NCBI RefSeq assembly: GCF_023256325.1
Contig: NZ_JAGDXI010000006.1
Span: forward strand, 1 to 47,090
Reading direction: 5' to 3'
Origin: Caldisphaera sp.
GTDB taxonomy: Archaea > Thermoproteota > Thermoprotei_A > Sulfolobales > Acidilobaceae
DNA: 47,090 nucleotides
Every line of letters begins with the position of its first letter. The stretch's first letter is position 1. Shown piece after piece: positions 19,991 to 45,864 of the stretch. The notes under the pieces were generated by a model, which was not told the origin of the DNA, searched no databases, and saw only the letters and a program-made list of their open reading frames with translations. The position numbers were made by a program, and so were the translations under genes.

Positions 19991-20072
19991 AATATCCCCA
20001 GTATTAAGAATTTATGGGAAATTTAAACTGTTATATTTAAATTAAGTACCTATTAACATTTATTAATAAAAA

Positions 20073-20080
20073 TTTATATA
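20073..20080 (+). promoter_or_regulatory. TATA box of the aspartokinase operon
   Basis: TTTATATA followed 24 nt later by the SD GAGGTGGGG (20105-20113), so transcription should start near 20100-20104. The aspartokinase ATG is 20246, which implies a 5' untranslated leader of about 145 nt, far longer than the roughly 5-25 nt inferred for other promoters in the window. Confidence 0.6.
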
Positions 20081-20116
20081 CTTGTATAAGAACGTGGGAA
20101 TTAAGAGGTGGGGATG

Positions 20117-20149
20117 ATGAAACACCAAACAAAAATGTTAGATGTATAG
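20117..20149 (+). CDS. Putative aspartokinase-operon leader peptide MKHQTKMLDV
   Basis: A 10-residue ORF starting 9 nt after the GTG of GAGGTGGGG, the same geometry as the aro leader (GAGGTGG, 4-5 nt, ATG). An ATG one codon earlier (20114) would add one Met. It contains Met, Lys and Thr, end products of the aspartate pathway that begins with the next gene. It ends 96 nt before aspartokinase, which has its own well spaced SD. Translation and regulatory meaning are inferred; K and T are common residues, so composition alone is weak evidence. Confidence 0.55.
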   Translation: MKHQTKMLDV

Positions 20150-20235
20150 TATATTGTATTCTAAGTATTTTAGACGTTTTTGTTAATCTGTTAAAACAAG
20201 TAGTTCTGATTAATATAAAGTTAATTTGTAGTAAA
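20150..20235 (+). promoter_or_regulatory. Spacer between the leader ORF and aspartokinase
   Basis: No gene is visible. It holds a T5 run at 20177-20181 and a weak stem of TTTTA-G-AC (20168-20175) with GTTAAAA (20190-20196) around a 14-nt loop. TTAATATAAAG near 20210-20220 could be a second TATA-like element, but it lies only 16 nt before the SD. The segment could carry a pausing or termination signal, but the stem is AT-only and not convincing. Confidence 0.3.
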
Positions 20236-20245
20236 GGTGGTTTAT

Positions 20246-21346
20246 ATGAAAATAAGTATTTTTAAAATAGGAGGATCTATTTTAAGCTCAAAGAATTCTT
20301 ATATAAATATATCAAGTTATATTAAAGATTACTTAGAAGAAAACGATGAAAATCTGTTTATAGTTGTATCAGCTATAAAAGGAGCAACTGACCTGCTCAT
20401 AGATTATTGCGATAAAGGTAATGAAGATTCTTTAAAAAAATTCGTTAATTTATATGAACAAATATCTACTTCTTTTGATAATAAAAATTTAATTAATGAG
20501 ATAAAAGAGAGGATAGACAAGCTTATGAAGATTACCAATGAAGCGAACGTAAATATTGCTTTAAAGGATTACATAGTTTCTTATGGAGAAAAATTAAGTA
20601 AAATAATAATGAAATACGCCTTAAACTATAATGACATAGATGTAGAAACTCTTGATGCAGATAAAATTATTATAACTAATAATAATTATGGAGATGCTTC
20701 AATTGATTTAATTGAAACAAAAAAAGCTTTAAATAAAATTAAAATTAACAAAAAAGTGTTTTTAATTGAAGGTTTTATAGGAAGATCTTATGATAATAAT
20801 GTAACAACATTGGGTAGAGGCGGATCTGATTATACTGCATCTTCGTTAGCATATTTGTTAAATGCTGAAAAGCTTTATTTAGTTACAGATGTGCCTGGAA
20901 TTTTTTCTAGTGATCCAAAAATTGTAAAAAATCCAAAAATTGTAAAGAGATTAAGTTTTGAGGAAGCTATCGAGGCTTCAAAATACAAAGTAAAGGGTAT
21001 AAACTACAAGACTTTTTATCCTTTACTAAAAACAAATGTCAATGTATATGTAGGTATGCCAAATAATTATAATACGTTAATAAATAATAATACTTATTAT
21101 AACGGATATGCTAAGCTCATAGGCTATAAAGAAAATGGAATCGATAAGCTAGTTGGTTTAATTGGAGAGGGCATGAATAAGGAAGACATTATAAATGAAG
21201 TTAATGAAATGCTTAAAAATAAATATGATGAATTAATTATAGAAAAAAATGATACCAGACCATCTCTTTCAATTTATATTAAAAATTATAACTTTTATGA
21301 ACTGTTAAATTCTATTCATGATAAGTTTATAGGTGATTACAAATGA
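20246..21346 (+). CDS. Aspartokinase with a single ACT region
   Basis: Phosphorylates aspartate, the first step to Thr, Met and Ile (and Lys in organisms using the DAP route; Thermoproteota usually make Lys through the LysW route). Motifs are FKIGGS at the N-terminus, FIGRS, TTLGRGGSDYTASSLAY and LVTDVPGIFSSDP. 366 residues. After the kinase core (about residue 275) only one ACT-like segment beginning near LVGLIGEGM is seen, whereas most aspartokinases have two; the first, usually effector-binding, ACT seems missing. The start is ATG 20246 with GGTGGT and a 4-nt spacer; GTG 20237 is inside the SD. It overlaps asd by 4 nt. Confidence 0.9.
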   Translation: MKISIFKIGGSILSSKNSYINISSYIKDYLEENDENLFIVVSAIKGATDLLIDYCDKGNEDSLKKFVNLYEQISTSFDNKNLINEIKERIDKLMKITNEANVNIALKDYIVSYGEKLSKIIMKYALNYNDIDVETLDADKIIITNNNYGDASIDLIETKKALNKIKINKKVFLIEGFIGRSYDNNVTTLGRGGSDYTASSLAYLLNAEKLYLVTDVPGIFSSDPKIVKNPKIVKRLSFEEAIEASKYKVKGINYKTFYPLLKTNVNVYVGMPNNYNTLINNNTYYNGYAKLIGYKENGIDKLVGLIGEGMNKEDIINEVNEMLKNKYDELIIEKNDTRPSLSIYIKNYNFYELLNSIHDKFIGDYK

Positions 21347-22407
21347 AACTAAATGCAATAGTTGTTGGCTCAACCGGTTTAGTTGGACAAAGATTAGTAT
21401 ATTATCTAACAAACCATCCATGGTTTAAATTAATTGGTTTAACTGCATCAAAAGAAAAATCCGGCAAAAAGTATATGGATGCTGTAAAATGGAGTTTAGA
21501 AAATGAAATGCCAAAAGAAGTCAAAGATATGATAGTCTATGATACCGATATTGATTTAATAACTTCTCTTAAACCTGACATAGTTTTCACTGCATTACCT
21601 TCTAATATGTCTCAGTTTTATGATATAGAGTTAGTAAAAAGAGGTTTTTTGGTTATTTCTCACGCTAGCAACAATAGGATGGAACCAGATATACCATTGC
21701 TTAATCCCGAAGTAAATGCAGATCATATATTTGTATCAAAACTTCAAAAAGAGAGATGGAAAGGTAGATTGTTCAAAGTACCTAATTGTGTTACGTCTAT
21801 ATTAACTCTGGCTTTAAAGCCAATTTATGATGATTTTGGAATTCAACAAGTTTTTGTTTCAACTATGCAGGCTTTATCAGGCGCTGGACTTAATGGTGTT
21901 CCCTCTATGGCAATACTTGACAACATAATACCATATATTGAGCATGAAGAAGAAAAGATAGAAAACGAGAGTTTAAAGATATTGGGTTATATAACTCCAA
22001 AAGGTATAAAATTAAATGATAAATTTTATGTATCTCCATCAGTTCATAGAGTAAATGTTTTAGAGGGTCATTTAGAAAGCGTGTTTATAAAAACAGAAAA
22101 AGAGGTCGATATCGATGATATAAAAAAGGCCCTAACGGAATTTAAAGAAAACAAAATAAAGAATTTTGATTTGCCATCAAAACCAAAAAACCCAATTATT
22201 GTTAGAGAGGAAGTTGATAGACCTCAACCAAGATTAGATAGAAACGAAGGTAATGGAATGAGTGTAGTTGTTGGAAGAATTAGAAAAGATAAGAAAAATT
22301 GGATTAAGTTTAATGTCTTAGGTCATAATACTATAAGAGGCGCAGCAGGAAATGGGGTTTTGATTGCAGAGACTTTATTAAAGAACATTGATTCATTAGA
22401 TATTTAA
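21343..22407 (+). CDS. asd: Aspartate-semialdehyde dehydrogenase
   Basis: NADP-dependent reduction of aspartyl phosphate. The Rossmann motif VGSTGLVGQRL, the nucleophile in PNCVTSILTLALKP, the STMQALSGAG loop and the HRVNVLEGHLES segment are visible. 354 residues, archaeal/fungal type. It overlaps aspartokinase (ATGA) and has GGTGAT 5 nt upstream of the ATG. Sulfolobales malonyl-CoA reductase derives from this family, so a reductase role is conceivable, but the aspartokinase partner strongly favours asd. Confidence 0.9.
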   Translation: MKLNAIVVGSTGLVGQRLVYYLTNHPWFKLIGLTASKEKSGKKYMDAVKWSLENEMPKEVKDMIVYDTDIDLITSLKPDIVFTALPSNMSQFYDIELVKRGFLVISHASNNRMEPDIPLLNPEVNADHIFVSKLQKERWKGRLFKVPNCVTSILTLALKPIYDDFGIQQVFVSTMQALSGAGLNGVPSMAILDNIIPYIEHEEEKIENESLKILGYITPKGIKLNDKFYVSPSVHRVNVLEGHLESVFIKTEKEVDIDDIKKALTEFKENKIKNFDLPSKPKNPIIVREEVDRPQPRLDRNEGNGMSVVVGRIRKDKKNWIKFNVLGHNTIRGAAGNGVLIAETLLKNIDSLDI

Positions 22408-22413
22408 ATGTAT

Positions 22414-23151
22414 TTATTCTACAATTATATATACTGGAGCATGATCTGAGCCCATGATTTTGTCCATTATATCGCAATCTTTAACCCTCTCTACTATATC
22501 ACTTGATACTACACAGTAGTCTATCCTCCAACCTATATTCTTCTCTCTTGCGTGGAATCTATAAGTCCACCATGAATATCTATTGGGTTCTTTATGGAAT
22601 ATTCTGAAAGCATCAACATATCCTAAGTCAAGAAAATGTGTCATCCAATCCCTTTCTTGTTGAGTAAATCCTGGATTGTTGATATTGTCTTTTGGTCTCG
22701 CTATGTCTATTTCCTTATGTGCAACGTTAAAGTCACCGCATATTATTTTTGGTTTCTTTAATTTACTTAAGTATTTTTCGAATAGGCTGTTAAAACTTAG
22801 CTTATAATCGAGCCTTGTTAACCCATGTTGGGCGTTTGGAAAATAGGCATTAATTACATAATAATCCTTAAACTCTAGTGAAATAACTCTGCCTTCAGAA
22901 TCGAAGTCTTCATTGCCAATTCCAAAAGTAACATTGATTGGTTTTAATTTGCTCATAGTAAGAGTTCCTGAATAACCTTTTCTCTTAGCCGGATTAATAT
23001 ATATCTCGTATCCTAGTCCATTTAGCTCTTCTGGTATTGAGTCTGTTTTAATTTCCTGGAACATTATTATATCAAATTCTAATATTTCTTTTGGAATGCC
23101 CTTATTTAAAAGACTCCTTAATCCATTTACATTCCAAGTCAAAATTTTCAT
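22414..23151 (-). CDS. Exonuclease III-type AP endonuclease
   Basis: DNA repair nuclease acting at abasic sites. LTWNVNGLRS, MFQEIKTD (metal Glu), CGDFNVAHKEIDIARP, GWRIDYCVVS and the final GSDHAPV (catalytic Asp-His) are complete. 245 residues, the usual size. ATG 23151 has GGTGAT 3 nt upstream. It is convergent with asd, with only a 6-nt gap. Confidence 0.93.
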   Translation of the reverse strand: MKILTWNVNGLRSLLNKGIPKEILEFDIIMFQEIKTDSIPEELNGLGYEIYINPAKRKGYSGTLTMSKLKPINVTFGIGNEDFDSEGRVISLEFKDYYVINAYFPNAQHGLTRLDYKLSFNSLFEKYLSKLKKPKIICGDFNVAHKEIDIARPKDNINNPGFTQQERDWMTHFLDLGYVDAFRIFHKEPNRYSWWTYRFHAREKNIGWRIDYCVVSSDIVERVKDCDIMDKIMGSDHAPVYIIVE

Positions 23152-43664: not shown

Positions 43665-43796
43665 TTTTATACACCAATTAGTACAACCATAGTGAAAAAT
43701 AAATACTTTACATTATGACCAATATTGTATAGAAAAACTAGTTCTTGTAATAAAAATATATTACTTAGAATATTTCATTAAACAGGTGTGATAACT

Positions 43797-45284
43797 ATGT
43801 TTGAAAACGAAGTTGTTAAGGAAATTTTAAATAAATACAGAAGAATATGGTCAATAGGTCATGCTATGGGATTAATGGGTTGGGATAATGAAACATATAT
43901 GCCTCCTAAAGGTAGCGAAGAAAGGGGATATGCCTTTGCTGAACTAAGCACGTTATTACAAGAACTTTTGTTGAGTGATAGCTTTGTTCAGCTAGTTGAA
44001 AAGGCAAAAAATCAAGATAATTTAAATGATTACGAAAAGGGAGTTGTTAGAGTTTTAGATAGGGAAATATCAATATTCAAAAAACTTCCTCCATCATTAA
44101 TATATGAGATATCAAAGACTTCTGAAGAGGCTTTTCATGCTTGGAAAGTAGCTAGAGAAAAGAATGATTTCTCAATATTTGCACCTTATTTGGAAAAAAT
44201 AATTAAACTTAACATAGAAAAAGCTGAAAAACTTGGATACGAAGAAGAGCCATACGATGCCTTATTAGATTTATTTGAAGAAGGATTAAGAGCAAGAGAC
44301 GTTGTTAGCATATTTAGTTATTTGAGACCTAATCTAAAGAGATTATTAGATAAGGTAATATCACAGAAATATTTCTATTTTGAGCCAGAATTAGAAAAAA
44401 TTAAATATGAGAAAGAAAAAATGGAGAAAGTTAATATAGAAATTTTAAATTTACTTCAATATCCATGGGATAGGGCCAGATTAGATGTAAGCCCTCATCC
44501 ATTTACTCAAGGATTAGGTATAAATGATGTTAGGATTACAACAAGATACGAAGGTTATGATTTTAAAAGATCACTATTCAGCGTTATCCATGAATTTGGT
44601 CATGCTACTTATGAACTTCAAATAGATGAAAATCTAAAAATGACGCCAATAGGTGGAGGAGTAAGCTTAGGTATTCATGAGAGTCAAAGTAGGTTCTGGG
44701 AAAATATAATAGGCAGAAGCTATCAATTCACTAGCATAGTAAAATCCATATTAGATAAAAATTTAGAATTTACTAAAAAATATACAGATGAGGATCTTTT
44801 CAGATACTTTGCAAGCGTCAAACCAAGTTTAATAAGAACAGAAGCTGATGAATTAACGTATAATTTCCATATATTGTTAAGATTTGAGTTAGAAAGGCTT
44901 ATGCTAAAAGGTGAAACAAAAGTCGATGAACTACCAGAAATTTGGAATCAGAATATGGAAGAGCTTTTAGGAATTAGACCTAAAACATTTAGTGAAGGAA
45001 TTCTTCAAGATGTTCATTGGAGCCATGGAGATCTAGGTTATTTCCCAACATATACATTAGGAAACATCGTTGCAGCTCAGATAAGAGAATATTTGATGAA
45101 AAATACACCTTTATATGACCTTATAAATGAAAAAAGATTTAATGATATTAAAGATAGGTTAAGGGATTTAATTCATAAGTATGGATCTACATATAAACCT
45201 AAAGAATTATTACTTATGAAAATAGGCGAAGTATATAACCCAGAATATCTAATAAAATATTTAACAGAAAAATATTTAAAGTAA
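43797..45284 (+). CDS. M32 (Taq-type) metallocarboxypeptidase
   Basis: Zinc carboxypeptidase removing C-terminal residues from peptides. The active site HEFGH is in SVIHEFGHATYELQ (about residue 265) with the M32 motifs HPFTQG, DVRITTRY, GIHESQSRFWE and IRTEADELTYNFHILLRFELE following in the usual order. 495 residues, normal. The start is ATG 43797, with the SD GGTGTGAT; GTG 43788 lies within it. A TATA-like AAAATATATT at 43753-43762 gives a short leader. Intracellular, no signal peptide. Confidence 0.93.
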   Translation: MFENEVVKEILNKYRRIWSIGHAMGLMGWDNETYMPPKGSEERGYAFAELSTLLQELLLSDSFVQLVEKAKNQDNLNDYEKGVVRVLDREISIFKKLPPSLIYEISKTSEEAFHAWKVAREKNDFSIFAPYLEKIIKLNIEKAEKLGYEEEPYDALLDLFEEGLRARDVVSIFSYLRPNLKRLLDKVISQKYFYFEPELEKIKYEKEKMEKVNIEILNLLQYPWDRARLDVSPHPFTQGLGINDVRITTRYEGYDFKRSLFSVIHEFGHATYELQIDENLKMTPIGGGVSLGIHESQSRFWENIIGRSYQFTSIVKSILDKNLEFTKKYTDEDLFRYFASVKPSLIRTEADELTYNFHILLRFELERLMLKGETKVDELPEIWNQNMEELLGIRPKTFSEGILQDVHWSHGDLGYFPTYTLGNIVAAQIREYLMKNTPLYDLINEKRFNDIKDRLRDLIHKYGSTYKPKELLLMKIGEVYNPEYLIKYLTEKYLK

Positions 45285-45306
45285 AAAACATGTAATCATA
45301 AAAATA

Positions 45307-45360
45307 TTAGCAACCTTTTTTCTTTGCCTTTGTTGTTTTCTTTTCTTCTTTCTCCGACAA
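45307..45360 (-). CDS. Putative 17-residue lysine-rich microprotein
   Basis: TTG-initiated ORF reading MSEKEEKKTTKAKKKGC. The SD GGTGAA (45365-45370) is followed by 4 nt and TTG, the exact modal spacing of this window, and a TATA box stands 22 nt before the SD. So the full promoter-SD-start arrangement of normal genes is present in front of only 17 codons. Seven Lys, three Glu and a C-terminal Cys; it is probably cytoplasmic, perhaps binding nucleic acid or another protein. I know no homologue. It may instead be a leader of an RNA, but no gene follows on this strand before the M32 gene 3' end. Confidence 0.5.
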   Translation of the reverse strand: MSEKEEKKTTKAKKKGC

Positions 45361-45392
45361 TTTCTTCACCGTAAAATAATAAACAAATAACT

Positions 45393-45401
45393 ATTTATAA
45401 G
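45393..45401 (-). promoter_or_regulatory. TATA box of the microprotein gene
   Basis: On the minus strand TTATAAAT, 22 nt upstream of GGTGAA, the same distance as the trp and aro promoters. Predicted transcript start about 45370-45375. Downstream of the ORF the minus strand has T-runs (near 45290-45303) that could end a transcript of roughly 80 nt. Confidence 0.5.
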
Positions 45402-45505
45402 CAATAATACATATTTTTTAGATTATAGCATTTTAAAGCTTCTTTATCTAGCATAAAAATGGAAAAATATTCATACATTAAAAAACTTTTATTTAATGAG
45501 AAGAG

Positions 45506-45864
45506 ATGGAAAAGAATTGTATAAATCAGGAAGAAATAATCGAAGAGATTTTGGAGAAAAGGAAGAAATTAGAAGTTCTGAGAATGGAATTAGAAGAGAT
45601 CTTAAAGGATATAAACCAAATGGAAGCAGTGAGGAATATAATAATAGAGTATATAATGACTCATGCAAAGAATTATTACGCAGGTTAGCAGAAGTATCAT
45701 CCGAAGAGGCATCACTAGTTTTTCGTATTTATAAGTTAAGAGAAGATGCAAAATATATGACATTGGAACTTTCAGGACTTTTATCGCAATATAGATTGCT
45801 AGGTGGAGATTACAATGAGTTTAAAAAATTTTTTGAAGACATGTTTGAGAAATATGTTGAATAA
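45506..45864 (+). CDS. Small coiled-coil gene read in two frames
   Basis: Frame one from ATG 45506 to TAG 45688 encodes 60 residues with a strong heptad-like pattern (EEIIEEILEKRKKLEVLRME). A second frame at -1 carries a protein-like segment, LLRRLAEVSSEEASLVFRIY and on to TAA 45864, but has no ATG/GTG/TTG start before an internal ATG at about 45757. The frames join naturally near GCA-AAG (45665-45670), where Lys-tRNA could slip from AAG to AAA, giving about 119 residues. Alternatives are a recent frameshift mutation, a sequencing error or two genes. A 21-codon ORF from ATG 45459 overlaps the start. No family recognised. Confidence 0.5.

Follow-up and report, generated by a model that had tools for sequence, protein, structure and literature searches.

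The 211-nt gap between the stop of an M32 carboxypeptidase gene (45284) and an ATG at 45496 carries, on the strand opposite the carboxypeptidase, an ORF of only 17 codons. Is this ORF a free-standing gene for a microprotein, or could a terminator, a small RNA or chance account for it? The locus lies in a stretch of 47,090 nucleotides from Caldisphaera sp. (the window), within a 1.52-Mb assembly of an Acidilobaceae archaeon. The following features are referred to below, G003 and G002 being two other, Caldisphaera-like genomes of the genus.

43788-45284 (+): M32 carboxypeptidase, convergent neighbour (Pfam PF02074, E 2.5e-149)
45285-45306 (-): T-rich stretch 3' of the microprotein stop (TATTTTTATG...TTTTTTAC), T-rich after the stop in G002 and G003 too
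45307-45360 (-): microprotein ORF of 17 codons, TTG start, TAA stop, MSEKEEKKTTKAKKKGC; from the sequence and the orthologues in G003 and G002
45307-45360 (+): pyrimidine-rich tract, about 80% C/T, 22 nt beyond the M32 stop; might act as M32 terminator, judged from the sequence
45365-45370 (-): Shine-Dalgarno-like GGTGAA with a 4-nt spacer to the start; the corresponding motif is GGTGAG in G003 and GGTGAA in G002
45392-45400 (-): TATA element TTATAAATA; from the sequence and the alignment with G003 and G002
45506-45688 (+): ORF1 of the divergent dual-frame gene, overlapping ORF2 by about 170 nt
45517-45864 (+): ORF2 of the same gene, TTG start, overlapping ORF1 by about 170 nt

Re-reading the sequence confirmed the ORF, GGTGAA, 4-nt spacer, 22-nt gap, TTG, TAA and 211-nt gap given in a preliminary description of this DNA. 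The TATA element is also present, but had been placed at 45393-45401, one base off from where TTATAAATA reads (45400-45392). The ORF is 54 bases long, begins with TTG at 45360-45358 (-), and its GGTGAA is separated from the TATA element by 22 nt. The encoded peptide has an acidic N-terminal part (SEKEE) and a basic remainder (KKTTKxKKKGC); towards the C-terminus it carries a strong positive charge.

The claim that every spacing matches that of real genes in the window proved overstated. The same TATA/Shine-Dalgarno layout is seen for some window genes, for example the gene starting at 23151 (-), but many others are leaderless or differently spaced. A motif scan (TATA-like hexamer, 18-32 nt, Shine-Dalgarno motif, 3-9 nt, start codon, 10-40 codons) gave five matches in the window, against an average of 7.6 over 30 first-order shuffles. 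Since shuffled windows give as many such arrangements, the layout alone is not beyond chance. The evidence that goes beyond chance is cross-species conservation, not anatomy.

Orthologues were found in G003 (MSEKEEKKTTKTKKRGC) and G002 (MSEKEEKKTTKTKKKGC; a single contig of 1,546,846 bases), whose peptides are 88% and 94% identical to that of the window, respectively. Both have an ATG start, GGTGA and a TATA element, and both occupy the same place, between the 3' end of the M32 gene and the divergent dual-frame gene. The frame, which had been considered doubtful should it be broken in close relatives, is thus unbroken in each of the two relatives in which the locus occurs, start, stop and ribosome-binding site included, and its changes fall mainly in third positions. 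A DNA search matched exactly the ORF plus Shine-Dalgarno motif in G003 (83% over 65 nt), and a profile of the three peptides gave one match per genome (E 8e-9 to 5e-8). The Gly-Cys at the C-terminus is invariant in the three species. In the promoters of the two relatives (TTATAAACT) the spacing is as in the window but one base shorter: TTATAA stays 20-21 nt away from GGTGA although the spacer varies in sequence, and TATA, GGTGA and start hold their register across diverged intervening bases. The three-species alignment has no indels within the ORF and many in both flanks.

Beyond these three genomes, the peptide profile gave no further match in the 48 genomes of the family (E <= 10) or in the remaining 211 of the 214 genomes of the order (E <= 5). 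The gene was not found in two further genomes of the genus, G004 (92% complete) and G001 (75% complete); in G004 the M32 gene is followed immediately by a different gene, and G001 yielded no M32 gene. Searches of IMG/VR, of plasmids (with four Gly appended to the peptide to reach the 20-aa minimum) and of the other collections beyond the genus gave no matches, and no PDB chain matched the profile at E <= 10. Matches to a KK[KR]GC-stop pattern in G009 and G027 were rejected, their reading frames being full of stops. The microprotein gene therefore appears to be restricted to the genus in the genomes covered.

As a yardstick for neutral change we used the four-fold sites of the M32 gene. Between the window and either relative 55-56% of these sites differ, and neutral sites are therefore heavily changed. 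ORF codons 2-17 contain ten variable sites among the three sequences, eight of them at the 16 third positions and two at the 32 first and second positions (Fisher p = 0.001). Only two amino-acid changes result; when the same base changes were put at random on the consensus, two or fewer were obtained in 0.097% of 200,000 trials. Purine-rich DNA yields K/E-rich readings from composition alone. With the codon test limited to purine sites, which mimics a pyrimidine-tract terminator on the opposite strand, p was 0.004 when all changes were counted and 0.04 when only transitions were. The codon-position pattern, in three sequences only, is that of purifying selection on the peptide reading frame. 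A micro-ORF at 20114, intended as a negative control, turned out to lie in an intergenic element (20075-20152) that is conserved itself; conservation between genes is thus no sufficient proof of coding, and we therefore placed the weight on the codon-phase test.

The control locus deserves a description of its own. It belongs to a 100-nt leader (20053-20152, +) that is 81-82% conserved in G002 and G003 and contains a TATA element, a strong Shine-Dalgarno motif and an 11-codon ORF at 20114, whose versions read MMKHQTKMLDV, MMKRQTKIIGV and MMKRQTKMLSV. Downstream follow an amino-acid kinase (20246-21346), probably an aspartokinase, and aspartate-semialdehyde dehydrogenase (21343-22407); the short ORF is rich in Met, Lys and Thr, the end products of the pathway. 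The core pattern of the leader occurs in the same three genomes only, of 48 in the family. It may be a leader-peptide attenuator or an unknown RNA element.

How do the other explanations fare? The conserved stretch could be the terminator of the M32 gene, its purine-rich complement merely resembling a K/E-rich ORF. The plus strand is about 80% C/T just after M32, and archaeal termination is promoted by U-tracts (PMC8716108, PMC2253867). A terminator should, however, tolerate C/T swaps and indels anywhere, whereas the observed changes fall mainly in third codon positions of the opposite strand, without indels, and features outside any such tract are kept (ACAACA, GGTTGY, stop, start, GGTGA and TATA). 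We regard a terminator on its own as improbable. A combination of the two is a different matter: the M32 transcript may end in the complement of the ORF, because U-tracts promote archaeal termination and the tract lies just past the stop. The 54-base stretch might then be under selection twice, for microprotein codons on one strand and for a U-rich M32 terminator on the other, which we consider unlikely but conceivable.

The preliminary description had also offered a small RNA with a coding start. An antisense or guide RNA with an incidental ORF would fit a promoter that faces M32 from the other strand; sRNAs are common in archaea, and dual function has been proposed for some (PMC11456600). 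On the other hand, there was no Rfam match to a known structured RNA family at gathering score, the folding energies in the three species were no better than those of shuffles (z 1.68, 0.30 and -0.20), and of the C/D box features (RUGAUGA, CUGA) no D box CUGA is common to the three aligned loci. Given the codon-phase signal as well, a purely non-coding RNA is less favoured and seems quite improbable to us; a transcript that is both sRNA and coding, and hence of dual function, would be compatible with these data. Least credible is a functionless chance ORF in a shared intergenic region. Similar TATA-Shine-Dalgarno-ORF arrangements do arise by chance, but passive conservation is hard to reconcile with 55% of four-fold M32 sites differing and with the indels in the flanking intergenic DNA, so that we give this explanation almost no credence. 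In contrast, the earlier proposal of an unannotated, lysine-rich microprotein ending in Cys gains support from the intact ORF in both relatives and the third-position changes. Very probably, 45307-45360 (-) is a free-standing protein-coding gene for a predicted basic microprotein.

We infer the expression of this microprotein gene from its sequence as follows. TBP/TFB would bind the TATA box at 45400-45392, and RNA polymerase, judging from the TATA spacing, would start near GGTGAA, so that the short mRNA would have a leader of about 10 nt. With GGTGAA paired to the 16S rRNA tail, translation would begin at TTG (ATG in the relatives) and yield the 17-residue peptide. The T-rich stretch by the end of the M32 gene (45285-45306, -), likely a U-tract terminator, would stop transcription. 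A role as leader peptide is ruled out by position: downstream, the minus strand is antisense to M32, and there is no minus-strand gene before 43664. If made, the peptide might be a small cytosolic accessory that docks through its lysines on a partner of negative charge, be it RNA, the ribosome, DNA or an acidic protein, with the terminal Cys as a disulfide or metal anchor. This role is rather doubtful; the most sober guess is an accessory that docks on nucleic acid or protein and carries a reactive thiol at its end.

The divergent gene beyond the promoter is unusual in its own right. In the Caldisphaera-like and Sulfolobaceae-like genomes read, the ORF1 and ORF2 frames are both open and the overlap can be aligned without a gap. 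The ORF1 frame is open, gap-free and coiled coil (e.g. IEELKRRIEETRRDLEKIY) where ORF2 homologues occur, namely within the genus and in a second family of the order, probably Sulfolobaceae. In that family ORF1 has no ATG, GTG or TTG, and an ATT 4 nt after the Shine-Dalgarno motif is its only evident start. Within the overlap, variable sites are concentrated at third positions of ORF1 (27/55 vs 17 and 15), and beyond it at those of ORF2 (32/57 vs 13 and 8), with the phase switching near ORF2 codon 48; therefore, coding selection is seen in each frame over its own part of the gene. The arrangement may represent either conserved dual coding of two proteins or a programmed frameshift giving one product. 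Residues 53-97 of ORF2 (122-aa reading from 45496; about 45652-45786) weakly match INO80F (E 3e-5; 24.4 bits vs the Pfam cut-off of 25.1), probably as a generic coiled coil.

Among known systems, ribosomal protein L41e has about 25 residues and is rich in Arg/Lys throughout. Like the microprotein described here it is tiny, basic and encoded by a stand-alone gene, but it lacks the acidic N-terminus and the terminal Gly-Cys. The one-domain zinc-finger micro-proteins of Haloferax volcanii (PMC6562870) are likewise archaeal microproteins; zinc fingers, however, need several cysteines (at least two pairs of zinc-binding Cys/His), and our peptide has a single Cys, at position 17, and no His. Small ORFs of Methanosarcina mazei detected by Ribo-seq, including the 20-residue sORF_154 (PMC11456600), are also very short and unannotated, several being genus-restricted and some stand-alone. 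Translation was measured there and is inferred here, sORF_154 sits in a known regulatory sRNA, unlike our gene, and we claim no sequence relation.

With 17 codons, the gene falls under the usual length limit of gene finders, which is why such genes are systematically missing from archaeal proteomes. A comparison of three species separates coding from chance even at this length, and provides a concrete case in a thermoacidophile lineage with few known microproteins. If the stretch is indeed under selection on both strands, the Lys/Glu codons would themselves be the terminator of the convergent M32 gene.
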